A model generated the notes under the pieces. The model saw only the letters and a list, made by a program, of their open reading frames with translations, was not told where the DNA came from and did no database searches. Of a DNA stretch of 64,000 nucleotides, positions 3,785 through 23,074 are shown piece by piece. The stretch lies in assembly GCF_003254295.1 (NCBI RefSeq), contig NZ_QKZO01000004.1, positions 186,001 to 250,000 on the forward strand, written 5' to 3'. A program made the translations under genes and the position numbers. Source of the DNA: Rhodobacter capsulatus (GTDB taxonomy: Bacteria; Pseudomonadota; Alphaproteobacteria; Rhodobacterales; Rhodobacteraceae). The first letter of the stretch is position 1; the number at the start of each line of letters is the position of its first letter.

Positions 3785-3802
3785 TCGAAGTGGAAATGGA
3801 AT

Positions 3803-3983: not shown

Positions 3984-5060
3984 TTGTCGGACATCGAAAC
4001 TTTCTATGACGTGATGCGGCGTCAGGGGATCACCCGGCGCAGTTTCATGAAGTTCTGTTCGCTCACCGCGGCAGCCTTGGGTCTTGGCCCCTCCTTCGTG
4101 CCGAAAATCGCCGAAGCCATGGAGACGAAGCCGCGCACGCCGGTCGTCTGGGTGCACGGGCTGGAATGCACCTGCTGTTCGGAAAGCTTCATCCGCTCGG
4201 CGCATCCGCTGGCCAAGGATGTCGTGCTGTCGATGATCTCGCTCGATTACGACGACACGCTGATGGCCGCCGCGGGGCATGCCGCCGAAGCGGCCTTCGA
4301 GGAAACCATCGCCAAATACAAGGGCAACTACATCCTGGCCGTCGAGGGCAACCCGCCGCTCAATGAAGACGGGATGTTCTGCATCACCGGCGGCAAGCCC
4401 TTTGTCGAGAAGCTGCGCCACGCCGCGGAAGGGGCCAAGGCGATCATCAGCTGGGGCGCCTGCGCATCCTATGGCTGCGTGCAGGCCGCGGCGCCGAACC
4501 CGACCCGGGCGACGCCGGTGCACAAGGTGATCACCGACAAGCCGATCATCAAGGTCCCGGGCTGCCCGCCGATCGCCGAGGTGATGACCGGCGTCATCAC
4601 CTACATGCTGACCTTCGACCGGATGCCGGAACTGGACCGTCAGGGCCGCCCGGCAATGTTCTACAGCCAGCGCATCCACGACAAATGCTACCGCCGCCCG
4701 CATTTCGACGCGGGCCAGTTCGTCGAACACTGGGACGACGAAAACGCGCGCAAGGGCTATTGCCTTTACAAGATGGGCTGCAAGGGCCCGACCACCTACA
4801 ACGCCTGTTCGACCGTGCGCTGGAACGGCGGCGTCAGCTTTCCGATCCAGTCCGGCCATGGCTGCATCGGCTGTTCCGAGGACGGGTTCTGGGATCAGGG
4901 CAGCTTCTATGACCGGCTGACCACGATCAAGCAATTCGGCATCGAGGCCACCGCCGACAAGATCGGCTGGACCGCCACCGGCCTTGTGGGCGCCGGTGTC
5001 GCCGCGCATGCCGCGGTCTCCGTGCTCAAGCGGGCGCAGAAAAAGAACGAGGAGGCGTAA
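3984..5060 (+). CDS. hupS: Uptake [NiFe] hydrogenase small subunit HupS precursor
   Basis: Electron-transfer subunit carrying the Fe-S clusters of the membrane-bound H2 uptake enzyme. The TTG at 3984 follows an excellent AGGGAGGGA ribosome site (3972-3980) and gives 358 aa. The N-terminus bears the twin-arginine motif RRSFMK (18-23) and a hydrophobic stretch, so the folded HupSL dimer would leave by the Tat pathway. Mature-part motifs include ECTCC (61-65) for the proximal cluster and several further cysteines toward the C-terminus ([25 protein letters not shown]). A hydrophobic C-terminal helix ending [10 protein letters not shown] would anchor it in the membrane beside HupC. An in-frame ATG at 4014 lies inside the signal sequence and lacks a comparable ribosome site. 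Confidence 0.95.
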
Positions 5061-5063
5061 GCC

Positions 5064-6857
<1,794 letters not shown>

Positions 6858-6866
6858 GGGGATGCC

Positions 6867-7655
6867 ATGAAGGGAGTTTCCGACGAAAGGATCAATGCCC
6901 CCGTCCGTGGCCCGGATGAAATCTTCGAGGCCTCGCGACTGACCGGCGACGCCACCCGCGAAGACCTTGAAAGCATCCGGCGGCGCACCTCCGTCTATGT
7001 CTACGAGGCGCCGGTGCGGGTCTGGCACTGGGTCAATGCGCTGGCGATCACCATTCTGGTGGTCACCGGCTATCTCATCGCCTCGCCGCTGCCCTCGATG
7101 CAGATCGGCGAGGCCACCGACCAGTTCGTGATGGGCTACATCCGCTTTGCCCATTTCGCCGCCGGGGTGGTGATGTCGGTGGGCTTTTTCGGCCGCATCT
7201 ACTGGGCTTTCGTGGGCAACCGCCACGCCTGGCAGATGTTCTACATCCCGATCTTCAACAAGCGCTACTGGAAGGAATTCGTCTTCGAGCTGCGCTGGTA
7301 TTTCTTCCTGGAAGAAGAGCCGAAGAAATACATCGGCCACAACCCGTTGGCGCATGCGGCGATGTTCACCTTCATCACGCTGGGCATCACCTTCATGATG
7401 ATCACCGGCTGGGCGCTTTATGCCGAAGGCGCCGGGCAGGGCGGCGTGACCGACAGCCTGTTCGGCTGGGTGCTGGGCTATGTGCAAAACAGCCAGCGGC
7501 TGCACACTTTGCACCATCTGGGCATGTGGGCGATCGTGATCTTCGCGATCATCCATATCTACGCCGCCGTCCGCGAAGACGTGATGAGCCGTCAGTCGAT
7601 GGTCTCGACGATGATCTCGGGGCACCGGACCTTCAAGGACGACCGGATCGAGTGA
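6867..7655 (+). CDS. hupC: Hydrogenase cytochrome b subunit HupC
   Basis: Di-heme membrane cytochrome b that accepts electrons from HupS and passes them to the quinone pool; also the membrane anchor. The 262-aa protein has a soluble N-terminal arm of about 50 residues, then about four hydrophobic segments with conserved heme-ligand histidines (for example VWHWVNAL, FAHFAAG, LHHLGMW, IHIYAA). It follows hupL by 9 bases with an AGGGGG ribosome site and is the last gene before a strong terminator, so hupSLC forms the structural unit. Confidence 0.96.
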   Translation: MKGVSDERINAPVRGPDEIFEASRLTGDATREDLESIRRRTSVYVYEAPVRVWHWVNALAITILVVTGYLIASPLPSMQIGEATDQFVMGYIRFAHFAAGVVMSVGFFGRIYWAFVGNRHAWQMFYIPIFNKRYWKEFVFELRWYFFLEEEPKKYIGHNPLAHAAMFTFITLGITFMMITGWALYAEGAGQGGVTDSLFGWVLGYVQNSQRLHTLHHLGMWAIVIFAIIHIYAAVREDVMSRQSMVSTMISGHRTFKDDRIE

Positions 7656-7672
7656 CCCCGACCAGGGGCGGA

Positions 7673-7706
7673 ACCGGGCGCAGAAGGCTCTGCGCCCGGT
7701 TTTTTG
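7673..7706 (+). terminator. Rho-independent terminator after hupSLC
   Basis: A perfect 12-bp stem (ACCGGGCGCAGA / TCTGCGCCCGGT, 7673-7684 and 7689-7700) with loop AGGC runs into a T tract (7700-7705). It would end or attenuate hupSLC transcription ahead of hupD. The following 150 bp is AT-rich at first (7701-7770) and could hold a separate promoter for the accessory genes, though I see no clear -35/-10 pair. Confidence 0.9.
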
Positions 7707-7858
7707 TGGAAATAGTTCTTCCAAATACATCATAAAACTGGTAAGAAAGTTTCCGAAATTCGCGATGTTCCGACTCTCTTGCCGGGTTTTGCCGGTCTGG
7801 GGGCTGGATCATCATCGGGGCCGAGCGCCCGCGCGAGCCACGGTCTAGGGAGGGAACC

Positions 7859-8491
7859 ATGCCAGCATTCACACCTGAACGGGTGCTCGTTCTGGGCATC
7901 GGCAATGTGCTTTGGGCCGACGAGGGCTTCGGCGTGCGCTGCGTCGAGCGGATGGCCGAAACCCATGCGCTGCCCGCCAATGTCCGGCTGCTCGATGGCG
8001 GCACGCAGGGGCTTTACCTGCTGCCGTTTCTGGAAGAGGCCGAGGCGCTGATCGTCTTTGACGCGGTCGATTTCGGCCTTGCGCCGGGCAGGCTGCTCAC
8101 CCTGCGCGACGGCGATGTTCCCGCCTTCATGGGCGCGAAAAAGATGAGCCTGCATCAGACCGGCTTTCAGGACGTGATCGCGACGGCGCAACTGATGGGC
8201 TATTGCCCCGCGCATATGACGCTGATCGGCTGCCAGCCGGTCGAGCTGGAAGATTACGGCGGCTCCCTGCGCCCGGCCGTGGCGGAACAGGTCGATCCTG
8301 CGATCGCCGAGGCGGTGCGCGAGCTGCGCGCCTGGGGGATCGAGGTGGGCAAGGGCGCGACGATCAGCAATGATCTGCTCGATCCCTCGCTTTCCCGCGA
8401 TGTCTATGAGCGCGGCCGCCCCACCGAGGACGAGGCCTGCCGGATCGGCGATCACCGCTTCTTCCCCTCGGCCGCCAAGGTCCGCGCCTGA
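7859..8491 (+). CDS. hupD: Hydrogenase maturation endopeptidase HupD
   Basis: HybD/HyaD-family protease, 210 aa, that recognises nickel in the HupL precursor and cuts off its C-terminal tail after the last metal-ligand motif. The nickel-sensing acids are visible in [14 protein letters not shown] near the N-terminus and FDAVDFG in the middle; a conserved His is in [10 protein letters not shown]. It starts after a GGAGGGAACC ribosome site, about 200 bp past the hupC stop and beyond the terminator, and its TGA overlaps the hupF ATG by one base. HupV, lacking a tail, would not be a substrate. Confidence 0.96.
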
Positions 8492-8811
8492 TGTGCGTCG
8501 GCATTCCCGTGCAACTGCTGTCGGTCGATGGCATCCGCGGTGACGTGATCGAGGACGGCCGTCCGGGCCTTGTCGATCTGTCGCTCACCCCCGAGGCGCG
8601 GCCCGGCGACTGGGTTCTGGCCTTTCTCGGCGCCGCCCGCGAGGTGCTGACGCCCGAGGCCGCCGCGCAGATCACCGCCGCCCTTGCCGGGCTGCGGTCG
8701 CTGATGGCGGGCGGCGATCTTGGCGATGCCTTCGCCGATCTCGAAGCCCGTTCGCCCCAGCTTCCCCCCCATCTTCAAGCCGCGCTTGACGCCGGCAAGA
8801 CCCGCGCCTGA
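8491..8811 (+). CDS. hupF: HypC-family hydrogenase chaperone HupF
   Basis: A 106-aa OB-fold chaperone starting MCVGIPVQL. The N-terminal Cys2 is the residue HypC-family proteins use to hold the iron cofactor and contact the large subunit. HupF is a paralogue of HypC (14557) with a longer C-terminus ([16 protein letters not shown]). It is thought to protect HupL during assembly, including under oxygen; that role comes from work in other bacteria and is not visible here. It overlaps hupD by one base. Confidence 0.94.
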
Positions 8812-8818
8812 GGTTCCG

Positions 8819-9235
8819 ATGCACGACTTCCCCATGCCCGACACCGCGCCGCCCTCGGGCAAGATCCATCCGCTGGTGGCGCGGCTGACCACCGATTTCG
8901 GCTGGCCGCGGCTCGACAATGCGCATGACCTGCGCGAATTCACCACCCGGCCGGGGGCGCATTGCCTCTTCGTGCCGGGCGACGGCGCGCGCAATCTGGA
9001 AACCCCCGATGCCGCCGTGGTGCTGCCCGAACTGCGCCAGGCCTTCCAGAACGCCTTTGACTGCGCCGTGGTCGGCGACGGCATCGAGACCGAGCTGCGC
9101 GAGACGACGCGGGTTCTGAAAACCCCCTCGTTCCTGTTCTTCCGCGACGGCGACTTTCTGGGCGGCATCGAGAAGATCCGCGACTGGGACGATTACATCG
9201 CCCGCACCTCTCATATCCTTGCCGCGAAAGGCTGA
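8819..9235 (+). CDS. hupG: HyaE-family hydrogenase assembly protein HupG
   Basis: 138-aa protein of the HyaE/HupG family, with a thioredoxin-like fold by family knowledge. It has no CxxC redox motif, so it probably acts as a chaperone for the HupS Tat precursor and not as a thiol oxidoreductase. The ATG at 8819 is chosen because it follows the hupF stop by 7 bases and gives a family-sized product; the frame is open further upstream inside hupF. The next gene starts 3 bases after its stop. Confidence 0.9.
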   Translation: MHDFPMPDTAPPSGKIHPLVARLTTDFGWPRLDNAHDLREFTTRPGAHCLFVPGDGARNLETPDAAVVLPELRQAFQNAFDCAVVGDGIETELRETTRVLKTPSFLFFRDGDFLGGIEKIRDWDDYIARTSHILAAKG

Positions 9236-9238
9236 GCC

Positions 9239-10066
9239 ATGGTCTCGAATTTCCACCTGCCCCCCGTCGGTTTCGGCCCCGGCTCGCAGAGCGACGAGGA
9301 CGAGGAACTGGGCTACATGCAGCTGCCCTCCGGCATGCGGACCTATGCGGCGCATCTGCCCGAGGTCGAGGATACGTCTTCCGTGGCCCCGGCGCTGAAG
9401 CTGCTCTCCGACATCGCCGCGGCGGCCGAGGCCTGCGTGCAGGGCGGCATGGCCAGCTTTGAGCTGGCGGGGCTTGATGCGCAAAACCGCGCGCTGATTG
9501 CGGAAACCATGGGGCAGGGCGAGGTCGCGATGAAGATCCGCGGCATCCCGGCGCTGATGGTGCAGGAATCGGTCTTTGCCGGGGTCTGGTCGGTGGCGGC
9601 CGCGGGCGTCGACCGGATCGAGGTGGGGGCGGTGCCCGCCGCGGCGCTGTCGCGCGCTTTCGAGCCCTTCCGCAAGGGTCAGACCGCGCTGCCGCCGCTG
9701 GCGGACGGGGTGGTGAACGCCCCGGCGCTGATCGCGGAACTTTTCGACAAATCCGCGGCTTATGTCGGCGGCGCGGCCGATGTCATCAACCTGACGCTCT
9801 TGCCGCATACGGAAGAAGACCTGACGCTGCTGGACACCATGCTGGGCGAGGGCGCGGTGACGATCCTGTCGCGCGGCTATGGCAATTGCCGGATCACCGC
9901 GACGGCGACGCCGCATGTCTGGCGCGTGCAGTTCTACAATTCGACCGATGCGCTGATCCTTGACACGATCGAGGTGACGACGATGCCCGAGGTGGCGCTC
10001 GCCGCGCGCGAAGATCTGGAGGATTCGGCGGACCGCATCCGCGAAGTGCTGGAGGCGATCCGTTGA
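9239..10066 (+). CDS. hupH: HyaF-family hydrogenase assembly protein HupH
   Basis: 275-aa member of the HyaF/HupH family, required for full uptake hydrogenase maturation in several proteobacteria; its chemistry is unknown. The N-terminus is acidic (SDEDEELGYMQLP) and there is no signal peptide or membrane helix. A late segment (TILSRGYGNCRITATATPHVWRV read in parts) carries the family's conserved GYGNCR. Its TGA is nested in the TTGA that also holds the hupJ start, so the two are probably coupled. Confidence 0.9.
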   Translation: MVSNFHLPPVGFGPGSQSDEDEELGYMQLPSGMRTYAAHLPEVEDTSSVAPALKLLSDIAAAAEACVQGGMASFELAGLDAQNRALIAETMGQGEVAMKIRGIPALMVQESVFAGVWSVAAAGVDRIEVGAVPAAALSRAFEPFRKGQTALPPLADGVVNAPALIAELFDKSAAYVGGAADVINLTLLPHTEEDLTLLDTMLGEGAVTILSRGYGNCRITATATPHVWRVQFYNSTDALILDTIEVTTMPEVALAAREDLEDSADRIREVLEAIR

Positions 10067-10911
10067 GCGGGCCGTTGAGCGGGGAAAATGCGCCCCGCGC
10101 CGGGTTCGAGGGGTCGTATCTGGGTGCCAATGACCGGATTTCCGATCTGGCGATCATGGAATGCAAGATCTGCTGGACGCCCTATGATCCGGCCTCGGGC
10201 GACGAGTTCCGCCAGGTTCTGCCCGGCACGCCCTTCACCCACCTGCCCGAGGACTGGCACTGCCCGAATTGCGATGCGCCGAAAGCGCAGTTCATCGTGC
10301 AAAGCGACCCCGGCGCCCCCGCGTTGCTGGAACAGAACCGCATTGATGCGCAGGTGTCGGCGCTGGTCGCCGATTTCCGCGAGATCTGGCATGCGAAAAT
10401 GCGCGACGTGCCGCTGGTGAACAAGGCTTTGTCGATCGAAGCCGTGGGCTTTCGCAGCCACGAAGGGCGCGGCCTTGGCGTGCTCGTCAGCCCCTGGTTC
10501 ATGAACCTGATCCAGCTGCCCGCCGAGGGCGAGGATTGGTCGGGCCTGATTCCGGGCGCCAAGGAAGACCTGGAATTCCCCTCGGGCATCTATGAATTCA
10601 TCCACAACCGGCGCGAGATGGTGGGCGGCTACAAGGCCTGCTCGCTTTATCCGACGATGGGCGATTTCCAGACCCAGATGCAGGCGGTCGATCTGGCGCG
10701 GGCGGTGATGATCGAACTCTTCAAAGCGGAAAACCGCGCCGAGACCGACCGGGCGGCGGAAATCCGCGCCACCCGCACGGCGGAACTGGCGGCGCTTGAG
10801 GCGGCCGCGGCCGAGGCGGCCGAGACTGCCGCCCGAGCCGAGGCGCTGGCGCAACCGACGCGGCGGCGGCTGATCTCGGCGGGGCTTGCGGGCGAGGGCG
10901 AGACGGAATGA
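10063..10911 (+). CDS. hupJ: HupJ: rubredoxin domain fused to hydrogenase assembly domain
   Basis: 282 aa. Residues about 30-80 are a rubredoxin: CKIC and, after the loop, CPNC give the four iron ligands. The rest matches the HupJ/HybE assembly family (VPLVNKALSIEAVGF, LGVLVSPWFMN, KACSLYPTM), followed by an Ala/Glu-rich helical tail. In many bacteria these are two genes (hupI and hupJ); here they are one, as known for R. capsulatus. The start is a TTG at 10063 overlapping the hupH stop; a second TTG 12 bases on, inside a duplicated CGTTGAGCGG, is equally possible. A role in Fe-S assembly of HupS under oxygen is inferred from other systems. Confidence 0.92.
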   Translation: MSGPLSGENAPRAGFEGSYLGANDRISDLAIMECKICWTPYDPASGDEFRQVLPGTPFTHLPEDWHCPNCDAPKAQFIVQSDPGAPALLEQNRIDAQVSALVADFREIWHAKMRDVPLVNKALSIEAVGFRSHEGRGLGVLVSPWFMNLIQLPAEGEDWSGLIPGAKEDLEFPSGIYEFIHNRREMVGGYKACSLYPTMGDFQTQMQAVDLARAVMIELFKAENRAETDRAAEIRATRTAELAALEAAAAEAAETAARAEALAQPTRRRLISAGLAGEGETE

Positions 10912-11792
10912 GCGCGGCGCTGGGCATCGTGCTGCGTCCCGAGGGGGCGCGGCTGGCGGTCAACCTGACCCCGCCCGATCCCTTGCCGGTGGCGGCGCTG
11001 CTGCTGGGCAGACCGCCCGAAGAGGTGGCAGAGCTGCTGCCGCGGCTCTTCAATCTGTGCGGCGCGGCGCAGGGCCATGCGGCGCGGCTGGCGCTGGGGC
11101 TGGCGGCGGACGAGACGCCGTCGCGCCGCGAGATCCTGCGCGATCATCTGGCGAAGCTCTGCCTGATCTGGCCGAAGCTGCTGGGCCTTGCCCCGCAGCC
11201 CTTGCCCGATCATTGGGCCGAGGGTGGCGCGGCGCTGCAACACTGGCTGTGGGGCGGGGCGAAACCCGGTGATCTGTGGCCGTTCCTGACCTCGGGGCAG
11301 GGGGTGGCACCGCTTCTGGCATCGCTGGGCCATGCCTTTGCGCCGGGCGAGGCGGTGGCGGTCCTGCCCCCGCTCACCGATCCCATGGCCTTGACGGCGC
11401 AGGAAAATTCCCCCGCCGGACGGGTGGCCGATGATCCGCTGATGCGCCAGGCCGAGGCGCGGTTCGGCCGGGGCCCATTTTGGCGCGCGCTGGGCCGGGT
11501 CGTCGATCTGCATGCTCTGGCGCTGGCGCCGCTGGCCGCAGCAACGCCGCGGCCGGGGCTGGCGCTGGTGGCGGCGGCGCGCGGCACCTATGCGCTGTCG
11601 GCCCGGGCCGAGGCGGGGATGGTCACGGCGCTTTCCCGCGTCACCCCCACCGATCACCTGCTGGCCCCGGGCGGCGCGCTGACGCTGTCGCTGGCCAACT
11701 TGCCCGCTGCCAAGGCCGGTCTGGCGGTTTTGGTCATCGACATTCTCGACCCCTGTGTGGCAGTCTCGCTGCAGGAGCTGGCGCATGCATGA
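10908..11792 (+). CDS. hupK: HupK, decayed large-subunit-like assembly scaffold
   Basis: 294-aa protein of the HupK family, known to resemble hydrogenase large subunits. Remnants of both metal motifs can be seen: [12 protein letters not shown] where large subunits have RICGxC..TH, and [11 protein letters not shown] near the C-terminus where they have DPCxxCxxH. Each has kept one cysteine, so it cannot hold the full Ni-Fe site. A scaffold role for the Fe(CN)2CO group is the usual proposal. It overlaps hupJ by 4 bases and hypA by 8. Confidence 0.9.
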
Positions 11793-12126
11793 AATGTCGA
11801 TCGTCGAGGGGATTCGCACGGCGATCGAGGAGTCTGCCCGCGCCAACGGGTTTTCAAAGGTGACGCGGGTGCGGCTCGAGATCGGGCGGCTGGCGGGGGT
11901 GGAGCGCGCGGCGCTGGACTTCGCCTTCGACGTGGTGCTGCGCGGATCTTTGGCCGAGGGGGCAGAGGTGCAGATTTTCGACATTCCGGGGCAGGCCGCG
12001 TGCTTTGACTGCGGAAAAACTGTCGAAATCGATCATCGGCTGGATATCTGCCCGCAGTGCGGCGGCACGCGGCTTCTGGTGCAGGGCGGTGACGAGATGC
12101 GGATCAAGGATTTGGAGGTGCTCTGA
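11785..12126 (+). CDS. hypA: Nickel insertion protein HypA
   Basis: 113-aa nickel metallochaperone. It starts MHEMSIVEG, supplying the N-terminal amine/His2 nickel ligands, and has a structural zinc site in CFDC and CPQC (about 73-95). The ATG at 11785, within the end of hupK, is chosen because His2 is essential in the family; the frame extends upstream but has no homology there. It works with HypB to load nickel into the HupL and HupV precursors. The last base overlaps the hypB ATG. Confidence 0.96.
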
Positions 12127-13079
12127 TGTGCACGGTATGCGGCTGTGGCGGTCACAGCGTCGAGGACCAGTTCAAGGATCATCTGAAGAAGACCGGCAAG
12201 GACGCGGCGCACAAGCCCGCCCCCTTTGCCGTGCTGGCCGAGCCGCAGGGCCCCCACAGCCATGCGCACAGCCACAGCCACGCCGCCGGTCACGGCGCCG
12301 AGGCCGACAGCGATCACCCGCATGCGCATGGTCACGATCACGGCCATTCCCATGGCGCTTGCGCCCATGACATCCATCTGGGCCATGGCCCGGCGGGCAC
12401 CGAAGTGCCCGGCATGAGCCAGGCGCGGCTGATCGAGATCGAGGCCGACATCTTGTCGAAAAACAACCAATACGCGGCGCGAAACCGGGCCGCACTGGCA
12501 CAAAAGAGCATTTTTGCAACCAACCTCGTCTCCTCGCCCGGCTCGGGCAAGACCACGCTGCTGGTGCGGACGATCGAGATGCTGGGCGCGCAGCCTCTTG
12601 CGGTGATCGAGGGCGATCAGCAGACGACGAATGACGCCGACCGCATCCGCGCCACCGGGGCGGCGGCCATTCAGGTCAATACCGGCAAGGGCTGCCATCT
12701 GGACGGGGCGATGGTTGAACAGGCGCTGGCGCATCTGCCGCTGCCCGAGGGCGCGCTTTTGTTCATCGAAAACGTCGGCAATCTGGTCTGCCCGGCCGCC
12801 TTCGATCTGGGCGAGGATGCCAAGGTGGCGATCCTGTCCGTCACCGAGGGCGAGGACAAGCCCCTGAAATACCCCGACATGTTTGCCGCGGCGGGGCTGG
12901 CGATCCTCAACAAGGTCGATCTGGCGCCCTATTGCGACGTCGATCTGGATCTTTACGAGGCCAATATCCGCCGGGTGAATCCGCACATCGAAGTCTTGCG
13001 TGTCTCGGCGCGCACCGGCGAGGGCATGGCGGCCTGGATCGACTGGCTCGGCGCGGGTCTGGCGCGGAAGGCGCGGTGA
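12126..13079 (+). CDS. hypB: Nickel-storing GTPase HypB
   Basis: 317-aa GTPase driving nickel delivery. The N-terminus has the CTVCGCG high-affinity nickel motif, then a His-rich stretch (about residues 38-85, repeated HSHAHSHSH-like and [10 protein letters not shown]) that would store nickel. The GTPase domain has the P-loop [10 protein letters not shown], the metal-site region GKGCHLD and NKVDLAP as the base-recognition motif. It is long compared with HypB proteins lacking the His region. The final TGA overlaps the hupR ATG. Confidence 0.97.
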
Positions 13080-14557
13080 TGGCTGCCACGGCCCCCGCGA
13101 TCCTTCTGGTCGATGACGAGCCGCATTCGCTGGCGGCGATGAAGCTGGCGCTGGAAGACGATTTCGACGTGCTGACCGCGCAGGGCGCCGAGGCGGCGAT
13201 CGCCATTCTGGAAGAGGAATGGGTGCAGGTCATCATCTGCGACCAGCGCATGCCCGGCCGCACCGGCGTCGATTTCCTGACCGAGGTGCGCGAGCGCTGG
13301 CCCGAAACCGTGCGCATCATCATCACCGGCTATACCGACAGCGCCTCGATGATGGCGGCGATCAACGATGCGGGCATCCATCAGTTCCTGACCAAGCCCT
13401 GGCATCCCGAGCAGCTTTTGTCCTCGGCGCGCAATGCGGCGCGGATGTTCACCCTGGCGCGGGAAAACGAGCGGCTCTCGCTGGAGATGCGGCTGTTGAA
13501 CTCGACCTCGGAAAGCCGGGTCGAGAAGCGCCGCCGCGCGTTGCGCGAGGGGATGGGGTTCGAGACGATCCTGCGCACGCCGAATTCCGCGATGAATGCG
13601 GCCATTGCGCTGGCGCGGCAATTTGCCAGTTTCGACGTGCCGGTGCTTTTGCGCGGCGAACCGGGCTCCGGGCGGGCGCAGCTGGCGCGGGCGATGCATT
13701 ACGTGTCGCTGCGTTCGGACAAGCCGTTTTACGAGCTGAACCTGGCCGGTCTGCCCGAGGATCTGGCGATGATCGAGCTCTTCGGCGCGCGCCGCGGCGT
13801 GCTGCCCGGCGGCGTGGCGAAGATCGGTCTGGCGCAAAAGGCCGACCGCGGCACTTTGTTTGTCGCCGGGGTCGAGGCGGCCAGCCCGGCGCTGCAGCTG
13901 GCGTTGTTGCGGATGCTGGCCGATGGCGCGATCACGCCGCTCGGCGGGCAGGAAACCGCCTCGACCAACCTGCGGCTGATCACTGGCGCGGCAGCCGATC
14001 TGCGCGCGATGGTGGCCGAGGGGCGGTTTCGCGCCGATCTTTACTATGCGCTGTCGGCGGGGGAAATCGCGCTGCCGCCCTTGCGGGCGCGGCGCGGCGA
14101 TGTCGCGGTTCTGGCGCAATCGATGCTGGCCGAGGCGGCGGTGCGGCATGGCAAGCAGGCGCTGGGCTTCGACGCGGCCGCGCTCGAGTTTCTGGAAAAC
14201 TACGACTGGCCCGGCAACCTGCGGGAATTGCACAATGAAGTCACGCGGATGCTGATTTTCGCGCAGGACAATGTGCTCGGCGCCGAGCTGATTTCGCGCC
14301 ACATCCTGCAGGCCGCGCCCTCGGACAGCGGCGCCGACCGCTCGGCCGAGGAGGTGATGACGGCGGATGGCACGCTCAAGGATCGCATCGAGCTGATCGA
14401 GATGCGGATCCTGCGCGAGACGCTGACCCGCAACCGCTGGAACAAGAGCCGGGCGGCGGCGGAGCTGGGGCTGAGCCGGGTCGGCCTGCGCGCGAAGCTT
14501 GACCGCTACGGCATCGAGCATCCGGCGGGCCGGGTGCAGGAAGAGGAGGAAGACTGA
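13079..14557 (+). CDS. hupR: Response regulator HupR controlling hupSLC
   Basis: 492-aa NtrC-type regulator, partner of the HupT kinase. Domains: receiver (about 7-125, phospho-acceptor Asp at about 55 in ICDQRMPG, switch Thr in ITGYTD, Lys in LTKPW), a linker helix, a degenerate AAA+ domain and a C-terminal Fis-type helix-turn-helix ([17 protein letters not shown]). The AAA+ P-loop reads GEPGSGR (193-199), Arg replacing the usual Lys, and the sigma-54 GAFTGA loop is GVLPGG (240-245). This fits reports that HupR works with sigma-70 and is active unphosphorylated. The start overlaps the hypB stop; an upstream in-frame extension lies in hypB. Confidence 0.97.
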
Positions 14558-14847
14558 TGTGTCTGGGGATTCCGGGGCAGATCGTGGCGATCACCGACGC
14601 CGGTCGGATGATGGCCTTGGCCGATGTGTCGGGGGTGCAGCGCGAGGTGAACGTGGCCTGCGTGGCCGAGGGTCCGCTTGACGCGCTGCTGGGGCATTGG
14701 GCGCTGATCCATGTCGGTTTCGCGATGAGCCTGATTGACGAGGCGGAGGCCGCGCGGACTTTGGAGGCCTTGCGCGATCTGGGCGAGGCGCAGGAGACGC
14801 TGGCGCAAATCGCCGAGGGCGCCGCGGCGCTGGAGGGGCGGGGATGA
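14557..14847 (+). CDS. hypC: Hydrogenase maturation chaperone HypC
   Basis: 96-aa small chaperone starting MCLGIPGQI; Cys2 carries the iron cofactor between the HypD complex and the large-subunit precursor. It is a paralogue of HupF (8491). It starts on the last base of hupR and overlaps hypD by 4 bases, consistent with equimolar production of the HypC-HypD complex. Confidence 0.96.
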   Translation: MCLGIPGQIVAITDAGRMMALADVSGVQREVNVACVAEGPLDALLGHWALIHVGFAMSLIDEAEAARTLEALRDLGEAQETLAQIAEGAAALEGRG

Positions 14848-15977
14848 AATTCGCCTCGGAATTTCGCGATCCCGCGCTGGCGAAGGGGCTTTTGGCCGAG
14901 ATCGCCCGGCTGGCCGGGCAGATCGGCGCGACGGCGGAAAAGCCCGTCCATATCATGGAGATCTGCGGCGGGCATACGCATTCGATCTTTCGCTACGGGC
15001 TCGACAAGCTCATTCATCCCGGCATCGAATTCATCCACGGGCCGGGCTGTCCGGTCTGCGTGCTGCCCCGCGCGCGGGTGGATGAATGCATCGAGATCGC
15101 CCGGCGCCCCGAGGTGATCTTTTGCACCTTCGGCGATGCGATGCGGGTTCCGGGCTCGAAACTGTCGCTCTTGCAGGCCAAGGCGGCGGGGGCGGATATC
15201 CGCATGGTCTATTCGCCCTTGGATGCGCTGGAACTGGCCCGGCGCAACCCCGGGCGCGAGGTGGTGTTCTTCGGGCTGGGCTTCGAGACGACGACGCCCT
15301 CGACCGCGCTCGCGATCCAGCAGGCGGCGCGCGAGGGGCTGGCGAATTTCAGTGTCTTTTGCAACCATATCACCGTGCCCGAGCCGATCAGGGCGCTGCT
15401 TGACGACCCTTACATGCGGCTCGATGGCTTCATCGGGCCGGGCCATGTCTCGATGGTGATCGGCATTCATCCCTATGATTTCATTGCACAAGACTATGGC
15501 AAGCCGCTGGTTGTCGCGGGGTTCGAGCCGACCGATCTTCTGCAGTCGGTGCTGATGGTGCTGCGCCAGATCGCGCAAGGCCGGGCGGCGGTGGAAAACC
15601 AATATGCCCGCGTCGTGCCCGAACATGGAAACAAGGTCTCGCTGGCGGCGATCGCCGATGTCTACGAGCGGCGGCCGTCGTTCGAATGGCGGGGGCTGGG
15701 GGAGATCGACGCCTCGGGGCTGCGGATCCGGGCGGCCTATCGCGCCCATGATGCCGAGGAGAAATTCGGCGTGGGTTATGCGGGCCAGCGCGCCGAGGTG
15801 GCGGAGGCCGAGGGCTGTGCCTGTGGCGCGGTGATGACGGGGCGGATGAAACCCGTCGCCTGTGCGCAATTCGGCAAGGGCTGCACGCCCGAGATGCCGC
15901 TGGGCGCCTTGATGGTGAGTTCGGAAGGGGCCTGTGCGGCCTACTGGCAATATGGCGGGGCGCGGGCGGCGGAGTAG
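14844..15977 (+). CDS. hypD: Fe-S scaffold HypD for Fe(CN)2CO assembly
   Basis: 377-aa scaffold on which iron receives CN and CO ligands. Family motifs are all present: CGGHTHSI, GPGCPVCVLP (the central redox cysteines), GFETTTPS, and the C-terminal [4Fe-4S] cysteines in CACGAVMTGRMKP...CAQFGKGCTPE. The C-terminus EGACAAYW is typical. It is followed by a 154-bp hairpin-rich spacer before hypE, the longest gap within the hup-hyp cluster downstream of hupD. Confidence 0.97.
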   Translation: MKFASEFRDPALAKGLLAEIARLAGQIGATAEKPVHIMEICGGHTHSIFRYGLDKLIHPGIEFIHGPGCPVCVLPRARVDECIEIARRPEVIFCTFGDAMRVPGSKLSLLQAKAAGADIRMVYSPLDALELARRNPGREVVFFGLGFETTTPSTALAIQQAAREGLANFSVFCNHITVPEPIRALLDDPYMRLDGFIGPGHVSMVIGIHPYDFIAQDYGKPLVVAGFEPTDLLQSVLMVLRQIAQGRAAVENQYARVVPEHGNKVSLAAIADVYERRPSFEWRGLGEIDASGLRIRAAYRAHDAEEKFGVGYAGQRAEVAEAEGCACGAVMTGRMKPVACAQFGKGCTPEMPLGALMVSSEGACAAYWQYGGARAAE

Positions 15978-15982
15978 GTTTC

Positions 15983-16130
15983 GGGGGCGTCGCCCCCGAC
16001 CCGGCGGGGGGCTGCCGCCCCCCGCACCCCCCGCCCCAACCGGGGGGAGGCCTCGCCTCCCCCCGGGCCCCCCACCGACCGGGGGAGATGCGATCTCCCC
16101 CGGACCCCTGCGAAATCTGGAGCAAGATGA
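15983..16130 (+). repeat. Four-hairpin GC array ending in the hypE start (repeat element, copy 6)
   Basis: The hypD-hypE gap holds four successive perfect hairpins, each of a different word: GGGGGCG/GCCCCC, GGGGGGC/GCCCCCC, GGGGGGAGGC/GCCTCCCCCC and CGGGGGAGAT/ATCTCCCCCG. It ends in a tail CCCTGCGAAATCTGG then AGCAAGATGAG that resembles the tail at 1540-1563. The hypE ATG follows at once. Such structure could pause RNA polymerase, stabilise mRNA ends or reduce hypE expression; no role can be read from sequence. Confidence 0.7.
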
Positions 16131-16131
16131 G

Positions 16132-17154
16132 ATGGCGTTGAGAGATGAGCGGGTGACGCTGGCCCATGGCGGTGGCGGCAAGGCGATGCGGGATCTGATC
16201 GAGGAGGTCTTCACCTCGGTCTTTCAGCCGCCGGGGATGGAGGATCAGGCGCGGCTGACCGAGGCGGCGCTGGCCGAGCCCGGCGCGCGGCTGGCCTTTA
16301 CCACCGACAGCTATGTGGTGACGCCGGTCGAATTTCCGGGCGGTGACATCGGCAAGATCGCGGTCTGCGGCACGGTCAATGATCTGGCCGTGGGCGGCGC
16401 GCGGCCGCTGTGGCTGTCGGCCGCCTTCATCCTCGAGGAGGGAACCGAGGTGGCGCTGTTGCGCCGGATCGTCGCCACGATGGCGCGCGAGGCGGAAGCG
16501 GCCGGGGTGCGGATCGTCACCGGCGACACCAAGGTCGTGGGGCGCGGCGCCTGTGATGGCGTCTTCGTCACCACCGCGGGGGTGGGCGTGATCCCTGCGG
16601 GGCGCGAGATCGCGGCGGGGCGGGTGCGGCCGGGCGATGTGGCGATCGTCAATGGCGTGCTGGGCGATCACGGCGCGACGATTCTGGCGGCGCGGGGCGA
16701 TCTGGCGCTGCGCTCCGACATCGAGAGCGATTGCGCGGCGCTGGGCCATCTGATGGCCGATGTGATCGCGGCGGCGCCGGGGATCCGCGCGGCGCGGGAT
16801 TTGACCCGGGGCGGCCTTGCCTCGGCGCTGAATGAAATCGCGCAGACGGCGGGCTGCGGCATCGTGATCGAGGAAACCGCGCTGCCGCTGCGCCCCGAGG
16901 TGGTGGGCCTGTGCGAGATCCTGGGGCTGGACCCGCTTTATCTGGCGAACGAGGGGCGGCTGGTGGTTTTCGTGCCCGAGACCGAGGCCGCCGCGGCGCT
17001 CGCGGCGATGCGGGCGCGACCCGAGGGCGCGGGGGCTTGCGTCGTCGGGCGGGCGGTGGCAGACCACGCGGGACAGGTGCGGATGCGCACGGCCTTTGGC
17101 GGGGCAAGGATCGTCGACATGCTGGTGGGTGAGCAGTTGCCGCGGATTTGTTGA
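16132..17154 (+). CDS. hypE: Cyanide-ligand synthase HypE
   Basis: 340-aa ATP-dependent dehydratase that turns the carbamoyl group received from HypF on its C-terminal Cys into thiocyanate. It ends LPRIC, the invariant acceptor cysteine. The N-terminus ALRDERVTLAHGGGGKAM carries the family's glycine motif; FTTDSYVVTP and GTVNDLAVGGA are the PurM-like ATP-binding signatures. The ATG at 16132 is chosen because family homology begins there and GGAG lies about 9 bases upstream; the open frame upstream runs through the hairpin array. An overlapping ATG at 16127 opens only a four-codon frame. Confidence 0.96.
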   Translation: MALRDERVTLAHGGGGKAMRDLIEEVFTSVFQPPGMEDQARLTEAALAEPGARLAFTTDSYVVTPVEFPGGDIGKIAVCGTVNDLAVGGARPLWLSAAFILEEGTEVALLRRIVATMAREAEAAGVRIVTGDTKVVGRGACDGVFVTTAGVGVIPAGREIAAGRVRPGDVAIVNGVLGDHGATILAARGDLALRSDIESDCAALGHLMADVIAAAPGIRAARDLTRGGLASALNEIAQTAGCGIVIEETALPLRPEVVGLCEILGLDPLYLANEGRLVVFVPETEAAAALAAMRARPEGAGACVVGRAVADHAGQVRMRTAFGGARIVDMLVGEQLPRIC

Positions 17155-17327: not shown

Positions 17328-20300
17328 ATGATGGACGTTCCTGCGCCAGAGACGGACATGCAGAGCGTGCCGGGGGCCGAGGTTTCGGCTGCGCCGGGAC
17401 CGCGGGCGGTGGTGGCCATCGGCGCCTCGGCCGGGGGGCTTGACGCGCTCGAGCGGCTTTTCGACGGGCTGCCGGCCGATACCGGCGCGGCCTATGTGGT
17501 GATCCAGCACCTCTCGCCCGACCACAAGTCGATCATGGCCTCGCTGCTGGCGCGGCATACGCGGATGCCGGTCGTCACCGTCGAGGACGAGATGGAACTG
17601 GCCGCCGACACGGTGTTTCTGATCCCGCCCGCGACGATCATGACGCTGGAGGGGCGGCATCTGCGGCTGGCGCCCAAGGATCGGCGCGTGCTGTCCTTGC
17701 CGATCGACGCGTTCTTTTCCTCGATGGCGGCGGGCTTTGGCAGCCGCGCGGTGGCGGTGGTGCTGTCGGGCACCGGCTCGGACGGCACCCGCGGCGTCGG
17801 TGCCGTGCATGCGGCGGGCGGCGTCGCCATCGCGCAAGACCCGCGCGACGCACGCTTTGACGGCATGCCGCGTTCGGCCATCGCGACGGGCTTCATCGAT
17901 TCCGCGCTGGGCATCGAGCGGATCGGCCCCTGGATCGCCGATTATCTGATCCGCCGGCCGCGGCTGGGGCAGCTGACCGGGGCCGAACGTCCCGATGCCG
18001 CGACGGGGGTGGCGGTGGATGATGACCGCGTCGCCGTGGGGCAGTTCGACGGGCTCGAACCGGCCGAGGCTTTGGGCCGGATCGTCGAGATCCTGTCGCT
18101 CTCGGGCGAGGTCAATTTTCTGGATTACAAGCCCGGCACGGTGCAGCGCCGGATCGAGCGGCGGATGGGCGTGCGGCAGGTGCCGGACCTGACCTCCTAT
18201 CTGGAACTGCTGACGCATGACCGCACCGAACTGGCCTGCCTGCGCCGGGAAATGCTGATCCCGGTCACCTCGTTCTTCCGCGACCCGGAGTCCTTTGCCG
18301 AACTGGCCGAAAAGGTCATCGACCCGCTGGTGGCGCAGGCCGCGGTGGGCTCGACGTTGCGGGTCTGGACGGCGGGCTGCGCGACGGGCGAGGAAGCCTA
18401 TACGCTGGCGATGCTGTTCTTTGACGCCTTCGAGCGTGCCGGGCGCTGGCCGACGCTGAAGATCTTTGCCACCGATGTCGAGCCGGTGAACATCGAGACG
18501 GCGGCGGCCGGGTTCTTCCCCGAAACCATCGCCGCCGATCTGCCGACGACCTTTCTGGAACGTTTCTTCACCACCCGCGGCGGCCAATACACGATCCGCC
18601 CCGAAATCCGGCAAACCATCGTTTTCGCCCGTCACAACCTGCTGTCGGACCCGCCCTTCACCCGGATGGATCTGGTCACCTGCCGCAACACGCTGATCTA
18701 TTTCCGCCCCGAGGCGCAGGAACGCGCGCTGCGGCGGATGCATTATGCGCTGCGCACCGGGGGCTATCTGTTCCTCGGCGGCTCCGAGGCGCTGGTGCAG
18801 GTGCAGGACGATTTTTCCGTGATGTCGGCGCGGCACCGGATCTGGCAGGCGCTGCGCCCGGGCGCAGCGCCGCTGACCGACCGTCGCGCCGGGCTTTACG
18901 TCACGCCGCGCCCGCCGCGCACGCGGGCCGACAATGCGCCGCTCACCGCGGTCGAGCGCGGCTTTGCCACGCTCTCGCGCAGCTATGCGCCGCCGCCCGC
19001 GCTTTTGGTCAACAGCCACCACGAGATCCTGCATTCCTATGGCGAGGTCAGCCGCTTCATGCAGATGCGCGAAGGCGCCGCCTCGCTGGAGATCGGCCGG
19101 ATGCTGGTCGAGCCGCTTCTGCCCGTCGCCTCGGCGCTGCTGTTCAAATCGGCGCGGCTGGGCGAGGAGGCGGCCTCGGATTCGATCCCGCTGGCTGAAG
19201 GGGTGATCGGCCCCGATCCGACCCGGCTGCGGCTGCGGGTCATGCCGGTCAAGCAGGGCGCCGACAGCGACGAGGGGCGGCTTTACATCCTCGCCTTCGA
19301 ACCCGACGAAGGCGTCGATGACGGCATTTCCGGCATCGACATCGACCGCGAGGTCGGCGCGCGGATCGAGATGCTGGAAGCCGAGCTGGCGATGACGCGC
19401 GAAAGCCTGCAGGCGATGATCGAGGAGCTGGAAACCTCGAACGAGGAATTGCAGGCGACGAACGAGGAGATGATGGCCTCGAACGAGGAGCTGCAATCGG
19501 CGAACGAGGAATTGCAGTCGGTCAACGAGGAGCTGAACTCGCTCAATGCGGAATATCAGGAAAAGATCGACCTTCTGAACCGCTCGAATGCCGATCTGGA
19601 CAGCCTGACCGAGATCATGGCGATGAGCACGATCTTTGTCGACAGCGAGCTGACGGTGACGCGGTTCAGCCCCGACGCGGCCGAGCTGTTCCGCATCCGC
19701 GATGTCGATGTCGGCCGCCCGCTCGGCGATCTGACGCATCGGCTGGATTATCCGGCGCTGCTCGATGATCTGCGCCGCACGCTGCAGGGCCAGTCGCGCA
19801 CCGAGCGCGAGGTCTCGGGGCTGAACGGGCGGCATTATCTGGTGCGGATGCTGCCTTACCGGGTGCCGTCCTCCTCGGCGCAGGGCGCGGTGGTGACCTT
19901 TGTCGACATCACCCAGACCCGCAATCTGCAGCTTTTGCAGGCGGTGATCGACGGGCTGGCGGAACATGTGGCGGTGCTGGACGGGCAGGGCGACATTCTG
20001 CTGGTGAACGCCGCCTGGACCCGGTTTGCGACCGACAATGGCGATCCGGCGCTGGCCCATACCGGGGTCGGCACGAATTACGTCGGCCGCTGCGACATCG
20101 GCGAGGGGGCGGTCGATTCGAGCTATGCGAAACGCGCGGTCGAGGGGATCCGCAGCGTCCTGACCGGCAAGCAGCGGCATTTCACCATGGAATATCCCTG
20201 CGATGCGCCGGGTCTGCCGCGCTGGTTCGTGATGCATGCGCGCCCGCTCGATGGCGCCCGCGGCGGCGCCGTGGTCAGCCATATCGAGATCACCCGCTGG

Positions 20301-20390
20301 CACAGCCAGACCGAGGCCCAGGGCGCGGCCGGATCTGCTGGACCCGAACCGGATGCGCCCGAAGCGGATGGGGGGGCGCCGCGCGCATGA
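17328..20390 (+). CDS. CheB-CheR-PAS fusion chemosensory protein
   Basis: 1020-aa cytoplasmic fusion. Residues about 25-215 are a CheB methylesterase with the apparent triad Ser34 (GASAGG), His61 (IQHLSPDH) and Asp152 (GSDGT), but no receiver domain. About 235-500 is a CheR methyltransferase ([10 protein letters not shown] near 350; [14 protein letters not shown]). Then comes a heptad-rich coiled coil (about 682-748, repeated NEELQ) and two PAS domains. There is no kinase domain, so this is the shorter relative of CheB-CheR-PAS-histidine-kinase proteins. The start ATG has AAAGGAG nearby. The stop overlaps the next gene (ATGA). No chemoreceptor gene is nearby; the methylation substrate is unknown. 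Confidence 0.88.
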
Positions 20391-23074
20391 GGCCCTCGGC
20401 CGGAATGATCGATGCCGATCTGGCGGGGGGCTTCGGCCACGATCTGGTGACGCTGACCGAACTGCAGTTCCGTCAGGTCGCGGCGGCGCTGACGGCGGCC
20501 GGTCTTGATGACACGGTGCTTCTGGTCTTCAACCGGCTGCGTCTGGGCGTCGTGGAACAGGCCGCCGCGCTGGGTCAGCTGATCGAGGAGGGGGCGCGCC
20601 AGCAAGCCGATCTGGAGGCGGTGCACAAGCTCCTGCGCGACGCCCCGGTGCCGATCCTCAGCATCGATGCGACGCTGGGCCTGCATTATTCGAACGAGGC
20701 GGCGCGGCGGTTTCTGGGCGAGAGCTTCGAGCAGAACGGCGGCGCGGCGCTGCGCCGGGCGCTGACGCGGCCGCAGATCGGGCGGTTGTCGGCGGCGCTG
20801 GCGCAGCCCTGCGAGCCGACGGCGCCCGGGCGCGATCTGACCCTGGTCTTCAGCCCGGCGCCGGGGCAGCCGCGGACGGCGCAGGCCACGCTGTTGCGGG
20901 CGCGCAAGCCGCAGGCCGGGACGGCGGGGCTGTGGTGGCTGATGTTGCTGCCCGAAGCCGGGACCGGACCGGCGCTGGCGCAGGCGGGCGCGGATCTGCG
21001 GCGGCTGTTGCTCGACACGTTCCCCGACCCGGTCAGCGTCACCGATGCCGACGGCCGGATCAGCCTGGCGAACCGGGCCTTCCTGCGCGCCAACGGCCGC
21101 AGCGAGGCCGAGGTGATCGGCCAGCTGCCGCAGGATTTCCTGCCGCTGATCGAGGCCTTGCACGGGGCGCAGCTGGATGCCCGGGTGCGCAAGACGCAAA
21201 GCGGGATCACGCTGGAACAGACGCGGCAGCGCCCGGCCGACGGGCGCGTGACGCCGTCCGGGGCGGAGACGACGGGCGGATGGGAGCGGCTGCGCACGGA
21301 AAAGACGCCGCTTTTCGACGATTTCGGCGCTGTTGTCGGCGTCGTGACCCGCAGCCATGACGTGACCGAGGAGGTCCGGGCCCGCGAGCTGGCCGAGATG
21401 GTCTTTGACCAGTCCTCGGAGGCGATCGTGCTGACCGATCCCGATCTGCGGATCCTGCGTGCCAATGTCGCTTTCGAACAGGTGGCGGGCTTTGGCCAGG
21501 CGCGGCTGGTCGGGCGGCTCCTGGAGGGGCTTTGGGGCGCGATGGCCGCTCCGGGTCTGGGGGCCTTGCCCGAGGCGGCCGGGCCGCAGGAGGCCTGGCT
21601 GGCCGAGCTGCAGGCGCGGGGGATCTGGCGCGGCGAGGCGGTGTTGCGCTCCTCCGAGGGCAAGTCGGTGATCTGCTGGAGCCGGATCACCCGTCTGGCC
21701 GATGCCTCGGGGCGGGTGCTGGGCCATGTGGCGATGTTCTCCGACCTGACGCCGCTGCGGCAGGCCCAGGCGGACAATCTGCGGCTGGCGAATTACGACC
21801 TGCTGACCGGCCTGCCGAACCGCAACCTGCTGGGCGAGCGGATCGACGGCTGGATCGATCTGGCGGCGCGCAGCGGGCGCGGCTTTGCGGTGCTGTTCAT
21901 CGATCTTGACCAGTTCAAGGCGGTCAATGACACGCTGGGCCACGAGACCGGCGACATGCTGCTGTCGGCGGTGGCGCAAAGGCTGCGGATCGGCACCGGG
22001 GCGGATCATTTCATCGCCCGGATCGGCGGCGACGAATTCGTGCTGCTTCTGGGCGACACCGGCGCCGAGGCGGCGCAGCGGCAGGCGCTGGCGCTGCTCG
22101 AGGCGCTGGCGGTGCCGATCGACCTGCCGGGGCTGCATCAGTATCGCCCGGCGGCGACGGTGGGGATCGCCTGTTTCGGCGCCCATGGCGAAAGCCGCGA
22201 CGCGCTGTTGCGCAATGCCGATCTGGCGATGTACGCGGGCAAGATGAGCCGCCGCACGGTGATGCTGTACGAGCCGCAGATGGGGGTCGAGGCGGCGCGG
22301 GAGCTGGATTTGCGCAATGCGCTGGCGGGCGCGGTCGAGCGCGGCGAGATGGTGTTGCAGTTCCAGCCGCTCTTCGCGCTGGCCGACCGGGGCCTGCGCG
22401 GCTGCGAGGCGCTGATCCGCTGGAACCGGCCCGGCCGCGGCCTGATCCCCCCGGGGGATTTCCTGCCCGTCGCGCAGCGGGCGGGGCTGATGCCGGCACT
22501 TGACCGCTGGGTCTTTGCCGAGGCGACGCGGACGTTGTGCCGCTGGCGCAAGTCCGGGCTGGTGGGGGCGGACTGGCTGATGTCGATCAACCAGACCGCC
22601 GCCGATCTGGTCGCGCCCGACTGGGCCGAGGCGCTGACGGGCTGTGCGGGCTGCGCCTGCGCCTGCAGCGGGCTGCAGATCGAACTGACCGAGGATCAGC
22701 TGGCCGACCGGGTTCCGGGCGCGGTCGAGGCTTTGGGGCGGCTGCGCGCGCGCGGGCTGCGGCTGGCGATTGACGATTTCGGCACCGGCTATTCCTGTCT
22801 CGCCTATCTGGCGCGGCTGCCGGTCTCGATGCTGAAGATCGACGCGCATTTCGTGCGCGGCATCGAGGCGGACCGCAATGCCCGGCTGATCGTCGAGGCG
22901 ATCACCGGGCTGGCGCGGCGTTTCGGCTATGCGACGCTCGCCGAGGGGATCGAGACCGAGGCCGAGGCGGCGACGCTGGCGGCGATGGGCTGCGACATGG
23001 GGCAGGGGTTCCTGCTGTCGCCGCCGCTGGCCCGTGCCGCCTTCGAGGCGCGGTTCCTGCGTCCGGCGGCCTAG
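20387..23074 (+). CDS. PAS-GGDEF-EAL cyclic-di-GMP turnover protein
   Basis: 895-aa protein with an N-terminal helical region, three PAS-like domains (about 80-190, 205-320, 335-455), a GGDEF domain (motif 547-551, intact) and an EAL domain (EAL 674-676; ELTED, DDFGTGYS, KID and AEGIETE all present). Both c-di-GMP synthesis and hydrolysis motifs look complete. The usual RxxD inhibitory site before GGDEF is absent: the sequence there is GADHFIARIGGDEF. No transmembrane helix or signal is seen. The start overlaps the CheB-CheR-PAS stop by 4 bases, so the pair is probably one signalling unit; an in-frame ATG at 20405 is an alternative. Confidence 0.9.
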   Translation: MRPSAGMIDADLAGGFGHDLVTLTELQFRQVAAALTAAGLDDTVLLVFNRLRLGVVEQAAALGQLIEEGARQQADLEAVHKLLRDAPVPILSIDATLGLHYSNEAARRFLGESFEQNGGAALRRALTRPQIGRLSAALAQPCEPTAPGRDLTLVFSPAPGQPRTAQATLLRARKPQAGTAGLWWLMLLPEAGTGPALAQAGADLRRLLLDTFPDPVSVTDADGRISLANRAFLRANGRSEAEVIGQLPQDFLPLIEALHGAQLDARVRKTQSGITLEQTRQRPADGRVTPSGAETTGGWERLRTEKTPLFDDFGAVVGVVTRSHDVTEEVRARELAEMVFDQSSEAIVLTDPDLRILRANVAFEQVAGFGQARLVGRLLEGLWGAMAAPGLGALPEAAGPQEAWLAELQARGIWRGEAVLRSSEGKSVICWSRITRLADASGRVLGHVAMFSDLTPLRQAQADNLRLANYDLLTGLPNRNLLGERIDGWIDLAARSGRGFAVLFIDLDQFKAVNDTLGHETGDMLLSAVAQRLRIGTGADHFIARIGGDEFVLLLGDTGAEAAQRQALALLEALAVPIDLPGLHQYRPAATVGIACFGAHGESRDALLRNADLAMYAGKMSRRTVMLYEPQMGVEAARELDLRNALAGAVERGEMVLQFQPLFALADRGLRGCEALIRWNRPGRGLIPPGDFLPVAQRAGLMPALDRWVFAEATRTLCRWRKSGLVGADWLMSINQTAADLVAPDWAEALTGCAGCACACSGLQIELTEDQLADRVPGAVEALGRLRARGLRLAIDDFGTGYSCLAYLARLPVSMLKIDAHFVRGIEADRNARLIVEAITGLARRFGYATLAEGIETEAEAATLAAMGCDMGQGFLLSPPLARAAFEARFLRPAA

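Follow-up and report, generated by a model that had tools for sequence, protein, structure and literature searches.

A CheB-CheR fusion gene that overlaps a PAS-GGDEF-EAL gene in Rhodobacter capsulatus: a possible self-adapting sensor coupled to c-di-GMP turnover

The described systems closest to the locus reported here are CheB-CheR fusion proteins with a histidine kinase, the adaptation of methyl-accepting chemotaxis proteins (MCPs) by CheR and CheB, the chemosensory pathway Wsp, whose output is a diguanylate cyclase, the RsbK/RsbM pair of Bacillus cereus, and DosP-like PAS-GGDEF-EAL enzymes. A CheR/CheB fusion of Azospirillum has reportedly been tied to cysts and chemotaxis. CheB is usually controlled by a receiver domain, and RsbM is a methyltransferase of the CheR type. 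As described in the excerpted text of PMC4574943, this operon-encoded enzyme methylates the signaling helix of the sensor kinase RsbK. We analyzed 64,000 nucleotides of Rhodobacter capsulatus (contig NZ_QKZO01000004.1, positions 186,001 to 250,000; hereafter the window), in which cheBR, the gene of a CheB-CheR fusion protein (P0001), overlaps the gene of a PAS-GGDEF-EAL protein (P0002). Our tentative reading, at slightly under even odds (about 0.48), is that the pair may be a self-adapting sensor coupled to the turnover of cyclic di-GMP (c-di-GMP). Among the papers listed by literature searches, which did not cover subscription papers, none dealt with a methylated coil of CheB-CheR fusions or with such fusions paired with GGDEF-EAL proteins, and none named the substrate of their two opposing enzymes; the text of PMC1592074, a paper on signaling helices, was also searched, and no CheB or CheR term was found in it.

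P0001 carried both catalytic domains with their motifs in one chain, followed by a coil of tandem glutamate-pair (EE) heptads and then PAS_10, the latter arrangement being a family feature found in this study; it therefore belongs to the CheB-CheR fusion sensors. CheB-CheR-coil-PAS-kinase fusions have the same parts in the same order, mostly including PAS_10. Unlike them, P0001 has no C-terminal histidine kinase among the Pfam matches listed, bears a second PAS domain (PASb), and has as its output a separate GGDEF-EAL gene. The predicted methylation of its helix resembles that of RsbK, in which the sensor's signaling helix is a methyltransferase target (PMC4574943, in part). However, RsbM is a separate protein that has neither a paired methylesterase nor an array of sites and serves sigma-B control, whereas here the helix is fused to both an esterase and a transferase, with c-di-GMP turnover as the output. 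In contrast to MCP adaptation, the window pair lacks an MCP signalling domain, CheW, and CheA, and enzymes and sites are in one chain. The Wsp pathway likewise ties CheR/CheB-type methylation to c-di-GMP, but no receptor, CheW, or CheA gene lies beside the pair and there is no receiver-GGDEF protein, so that the joint encoding of MCP, CheW, CheA, and receiver-GGDEF that marks Wsp and alternative cellular function (ACF) systems was not seen here. Residues 182-882 of P0002 align with DosP; unlike DosP, P0002 has three PAS domains and is coupled to CheBR, and a haem in it would be hypothetical.

The sequence-only reading had placed the fusion gene in a 4-base overlap with a three-PAS GGDEF-EAL gene, and the coordinates and the shared ATGA were confirmed (Table 1). 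Its statement that the fusion has neither a kinase nor a CheB receiver also stood, as no receiver, HisKA, HATPase, or HWE match to P0001 was found in the 25 Pfam families listed of 43. Its long coil and two PAS domains were recovered as one continuous helix (residues 672-764) in an AlphaFold2 model with a mean predicted local distance difference test (pLDDT) of 75.5 and as two Pfam matches, but the model had PAS-like strands and helices also at about residues 541-660, and P0001 probably has three PAS-like domains. In a Foldseek comparison, segments of the model fell close to the PAS structures of DosP, NifL, PpsR, and FixL, which is not enough to assign a cofactor. Ser34, His61, and Asp152, which we take to be the CheB catalytic triad, and the GEEA motif of CheR were invariant across 32 two-PAS members, and the CheR part aligned with CheR structures (best by sequence, 5ftw from Bacillus subtilis). 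In P0002, the GGDEF motif was intact and the residues that we presume to be catalytic in EAL aligned with those of chain 5m3c, a GGDEF-EAL protein, so that a bifunctional activity is predicted.

The coil was the most conserved part of the protein. Identity to 26 beta- and gammaproteobacterial homologues was 78% in the coil, 62% in CheB, 60% in CheR, and 51% and 47% in the PAS domains. Because the 60 coil codons differed by 15-29 synonymous changes in five homologues, the constraint acts on the protein. Residues 699-740 comprise six heptads with the pattern EE[LM]xxx(N), and the six EE pairs and six Asn residues (705, 712, 719, 726, 733, and 740) were invariant in 32 sequences. A register with Leu/Met at d and Asn at a would place the Glu pair on b and c. 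The f position of a coil is normally free; here, the fourth residue after the first Glu, at f, was S, A, or T in 99% of 805 heptads, which resembles the methylation sites of chemoreceptors. At least four EE pairs at a spacing of seven were present in 155 of 159 distinct CheB-CheR open reading frames (ORFs), and three of the four with shorter runs were at a locus end (L015), split (L201), or at a contig end (L208). The split form L201 has CheB-CheR (219-2075) and coil-PAS_10 (4014-5651) in two ORFs about 1.9 kb apart.

This EE array was confined almost wholly to CheB-CheR proteins. Runs of at least four tandem EExx[ASTG] occurred in 65/65 CheBR ORFs, in 0/11 MCP ORFs, in 1/53 GGDEF/EAL ORFs, and in 0/775 other ORFs once the truncated CheBR L103 was set aside; among the 840 ORFs outside the CheBR class, the only such runs were in L103 and L116, both CheBR-type proteins cut by a contig end. 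When 149 Rhodobacterales genomes were searched with the coil only, 61 of the 64 genes matched were CheB-CheR fusions, and all 61 fusion places among the matches listed by a full-length search were matched by the coil as well. The other three were a CheR-less relative (L163) and two hybrid kinases (L161 and L162). In relatives that lack CheR, the array is lost: a single EE pair remains in L163 and in L216, and L203, which begins inside the coil, has one (L204 and L205, whose ORFs begin within or past the coil, were excluded as uninformative). A PAS_10 search of 149 genomes for CheR-less relatives gave one clear case, G020. At least two tandem [EQ][EQ]xxA[ST] sites were found in 36/65 CheBR, and four of the six sites of P0001 fit EExx[ASTG][ASTG]; the short methylation-site consensus used for these comparisons comes from the excerpted text of PMC1079850. 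Taken together, several kinds of sequence evidence are consistent with the coil being a methylation substrate.

The pairing of the two genes was conserved far outside the species, as the sequence-only reading had proposed to check. Six exact P0001 peptides, one of them (QATNEEMM) from the coil, were searched in 84,980 species genomes and gave 42 loci; the peptide scan and profiles A1 and A2 include the coil, so the resulting sets are biased to coil-bearing proteins, the full-length search less so. ORFs were the longest non-overlapping script-made frames rather than annotated genes, and gene overlaps are upper bounds. Neighbour counts required at least 1 kb downstream and at least two tandem EExx[ASTG] in the CheB-CheR ORF, the latter condition removing one ORF, the split gene L201, and kinases in cis or next door were called by BLAST with four kinase queries (the kinase neighbour of L104 by BLAST only, that of L093 confirmed by Pfam). 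Two-PAS members occurred in Rhodobacter, Phaeovulum, Phycocomes, several Burkholderiales, Azonexus/Azoarcus, Thiocapsa, Ectothiorhodospira, and Thiorhodospira. A GGDEF/EAL gene lay within 200 bp in 30 of 35 two-PAS loci from alpha-, beta-, and gammaproteobacteria, a kinase gene in two, and neither in three; this set counts kin repeatedly (five Rhodobacter and eight Ectothiorhodospira loci), includes L196 and L218 from other searches, and does not contain the window locus. The partner was convergent in Ectothiorhodospira and elsewhere mostly on the same strand, touching or overlapping. In the Ectothiorhodospiraceae set, 7/12 kinase-less loci had a GGDEF/EAL gene within 200 bp, six of the seven being single-PAS. 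Seven of 18 genomes of the genus had a CheBR orthologue (80-98% identity to P0001 in the six other genomes), with an adjoining GGDEF-EAL orthologue in six of the seven.

By simple regular expressions, most neighbours and fusions keep the GGDEF and EAL residues; three gave no match to the cyclase motif, four have SGDEF in its place, and some gave no match to other motifs. A single origin of the partners was considered and rejected, as a FastTree of 73 GGDEF-EAL domains put the neighbours of two-PAS CheBR in 10 pure groups; only 19 domains were labelled unpaired, two of which (L103 and L116) are really CheBR-linked, and some supports were weak. By this tree, several recruitments of GGDEF-EAL partners are likely.

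Across the phylum, the pair exemplifies a modular rule, in which one CheBR cassette is joined to exchangeable outputs; for many CheBR proteins, though not for all, the output was in the same chain or encoded by a neighbouring gene. Profile A2 (coil plus PAS_10) matched 175 of 398 sampled genomes, many weakly, and 80 regions were sampled, 60 of them strong matches taken in list order, passing over several, and 20 picked to include odd hits. An output gene (kinase or GGDEF/EAL) lay within 200 bp of 17 of the 31 CheBR genes without a cis output (12 kinase, 5 GGDEF/EAL), compared with 1 of the 31 with a cis kinase (Fisher p 9.1e-6). In a Rhodobacteraceae control, 0/12 kinase-bearing CheBR had an adjoining output gene, and three of six kinase-less ones adjoined a kinase gene. 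Single-chain CheB-CheR-coil-GGDEF-EAL fusions were found at L108, L206, L272, and L280, the last three in the phylum sample; that of L108, a Geobacteraceae metagenome-assembled genome (MAG), is CheB-CheR-coil-PAS_10-PAS-GGDEF-EAL. The chain of L206 (2647-7674; 1675 residues) is REC-CheB-CheR-coil-(PAS)-GGDEF-EAL, with the CheB receiver kept. PASb also occurs in separate proteins (L192 10310-13426, L193 6241-9327, and L197-L199); those of L192 and L198 are histidine kinases by Pfam, and the PASb genes of L192 and L193 are convergent with a kinase-bearing CheBR gene.

The conserved neighbourhood outside the species and the existence of natural fusions strongly support a functional unit in which methylation and c-di-GMP are handled jointly, and the overlapping genes and the fusions make a physical complex of CheBR and P0002 likely. 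In the self-adapting sensor that we propose, the PAS domains of CheBR would sense a cytoplasmic cue (redox, gas, or a small ligand), and the attached CheR would methylate, and the attached CheB demethylate, the EE sites of their own coil, in cis or across a dimer. The methylation state of the coil would let the signal adapt or be remembered, and the coil and C-terminal PAS domains would relay this state to the PAS-GGDEF-EAL protein from the overlapping gene, setting c-di-GMP synthesis against degradation. We infer the coil methylation, the direct contact of the two proteins, the direction of the c-di-GMP effect, and the cue. It is possible, at somewhat less than even odds, that CheB-CheR fusions at large are self-contained adaptation modules, with transferase, esterase, and their own site array in one chain, and that the window pair is their c-di-GMP version, which would put c-di-GMP under adaptive control that depends on methylation; such modules would have a chemoreceptor-like memory without a chemoreceptor and interchangeable outputs, namely a cis kinase, an adjoining kinase or GGDEF-EAL gene, or a fused GGDEF-EAL part. 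A cis array, if true, would explain why CheB-CheR fusions, which are common, exist; sensory adaptation by reversible methylation would then not be limited to chemoreceptors, and c-di-GMP signalling would gain a molecular memory.

Several results weigh against a self-adapting sensor. Only two of the six P0001 sites fit EExxA[ST] exactly, and the fuller Alexander-Zhulin consensus, [ASTG][ASTG]xx[EQ][EQ]xx[ASTG][ASTG] as given in the excerpted text of PMC6829392, is not matched because Q, E, or M stands four positions ahead of the first Glu; the window coil thus differs from MCP methylation sites in the upstream half of that consensus. The fourth CheB-CheR ORF with a short run, L217, is a true exception, with CheB and CheR present and only two tandem EE. 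Some hybrid kinases that do not belong to the family have EE heptads as well: L161 has two fitting sites (L162 has a run of 0), L209, at a contig end, has two, and L210 has three, its flanks of about 3 kb containing no CheR or CheB. The row of Glu pairs may have a role in the packing of the coil or the specificity of dimers, and the loss of EE along with CheR may be general decay. In the phylum sample, GGDEF/EAL neighbours considered alone (5/31 vs 1/31, p 0.2) were not significantly enriched, and 14 of the 31 output-less CheBR had neither output gene within 200 bp; in R. maris (L078), CheBR has no partner gene. An MCP-domain ORF lies within 200 bp of 2 of 144 CheBR genes (L101 and L114, both Ectothiorhodospira mobilis), where a GGDEF-EAL neighbour is present as well. 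Separate cheR genes adjoin L161 and L162, one of them also with cheB; this was tried as support for coil methylation and dropped, as the sites of these kinases fit no better than those of kinases without a nearby cheR.

Such MCP neighbours would suit an arrangement in which the pair works together while the substrate of CheR and CheB is a chemoreceptor in trans (one of the 14 MCPs) and the coil is only a conserved signaling helix between sensor and output. We consider this unlikely. Both enzymes resemble receptor enzymes in sequence, 14 MCP-domain genes are present in the genome, 5 of the 11 MCP ORFs examined have two tandem sites of the E[EQ]xx[ASTG][ASTG] type, an MCP-domain ORF is found elsewhere in the locus for six more of the 144 CheBR genes, and conserved signaling helices are reportedly a recurring theme in published work. 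Yet 136/144 CheBR genes have no MCP-domain ORF in their locus, and neither the invariance of the EE pairs nor the 99% S/A/T at an exposed position is readily explained by a plain linker coil. Two further CheR genes stand beside CheW domains on contigs C2 and C12, and these are the only contigs with CheW-domain genes (CheA/CheW); the window is on C4. The claim that no chemoreceptor, CheA, or CheY gene is near the pair agrees with this and with the position of the nearest MCP-domain gene, about 24 kb upstream and outside the window; CheY was not searched for. Methylation of the GGDEF-EAL partner or its PAS linkers, switching the partner, is very unlikely: the overlapping genes and fusions put the partner within reach, but the one GGDEF/EAL ORF with a tandem run (L116) is itself a CheBR-type fusion, and the kinase-output versions have the coil in common, not the partner. 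The earlier suggestion that the partner or soluble receptors are methylated is accordingly not favoured, the MCP-like row of sites being in the coil of CheBR itself.

That CheB and CheR are a scaffold whose catalysis no longer matters, with a PAS-PAS complex controlling c-di-GMP and coil methylation playing no part, is quite unlikely to our mind. The receiver-less CheB is without its usual control, but the motifs of both enzymes are kept through alpha, beta, and gamma members, and both domains are better conserved than the PAS domains. We regard as highly improbable a regulator specific to the hup/hyp cluster, acting in H2 or redox signalling. CheBR lies directly downstream of hypE in 5/5 named Rhodobacter loci, HupL is present in all seven genus genomes with CheBR, and in a betaproteobacterial MAG (L095, 5216-12871) the pair follows hypDE, a formyltransferase-like ORF that may be HoxX-like, and a HupR-like sigma-54 regulator. 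However, HupL is also present in seven genus genomes without CheBR (7 of 14 HupL-bearing genomes), and the other two-PAS loci had no hyp/hup match in their flanks, which covered at most 10 kb and in some cases much less. A hydrogenase-specific function was rejected on these grounds, and the link to H2 genes that the sequence-only reading had drawn, true of the genus and one MAG and not general, is a lead, not a rule. Positions of the pair, its domains, and the hydrogenase cluster are collected in Table 1.

Table 1. Positions in the window of cheBR, P0002, their parts, and the adjoining hydrogenase cluster.
Feature	Coordinates	Strand	Basis
cheBR, CheB-CheR-PAS-like-coil-PAS-PAS, 1020 aa (P0001)	17328..20390	+	ORF (ATG to stop), Pfam, orthologues
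CheB methylesterase domain, residues 29-201, without receiver	17412..17930	+	Pfam (CheB_methylest), Ser34/His61/Asp152 kept
CheR_N (259-298) and CheR (313-504) methyltransferase, residues 259-504	18102..18839	+	Pfam, GEEA motif kept
Probable PAS-like domain, residues 541-660	18948..19307	+	Secondary structure of AlphaFold2 model; none among Pfam matches listed
Single long helix (coil), residues 672-764	19341..19619	+	AlphaFold2 model; most conserved segment
EE-pair array of coil	19422..19544	+	Six EE pairs invariant in 32 sequences; consensus from PMC1079850 (in part)
PAS_10, residues 757-862	19596..19913	+	Pfam
Second PAS (PASb), residues 869-991, marker of two-PAS clade	19932..20300	+	Pfam (PAS/PAS_4 from 869), model
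ATGA stop/start overlap	20387..20390	+	Sequence; suggests translational coupling
PAS-PAS-PAS-GGDEF-EAL protein, 895 aa (P0002)	20387..23074	+	ORF, Pfam (three PAS stretches)
GGDEF domain, residues 468-623	21788..22255	+	Pfam, motif intact
EAL domain, residues 644-880	22316..23026	+	Pfam, presumed catalytic residues kept
Hydrogenase (hup/hyp) cluster, context outside pair	82..17154	+	Pfam/NCBIfam of scanned ORFs; some gene names presumed

An AAAGGAG stretch lies 5 bases ahead of the P0001 ATG, and the frame extends upstream to an alternative TTG start at 17148; the HypE gene ends 173 bp ahead of P0001. In a promoter and terminator scan of 17000-23500, the sole signal above shuffled sequences was a weak promoter-like site on the opposite strand. 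The closest named record was Rhodobacter capsulatus SP108 (98%), in a search that may omit the records nearest to the window. RxxD is the inhibitory-site motif of GGDEF domains, and it was not seen in that of P0002 when the sequence was read by eye. An almost full-length paralogue of P0002 (52% identity over residues 33-891) lies outside the window at G000:C4:879-3473, with an MCP gene (C4:5743-6231) and a further GGDEF-EAL gene (C4:6406-7830) nearby. The pair is followed by a gene on the minus strand (23455-24738) that we take, in part by assumption, to be of the sulfide:quinone reductase type, its match being far below the NCBIfam cut-off. Between P0002 and this gene, an ORF of about 70 codons (23175-23387, plus strand) has, by eye, one likely membrane segment and an Ala/Pro-rich tail. 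Within the hydrogenase cluster, a single ORF (10063-10911) combines rubredoxin and HybE-type chaperone domains.

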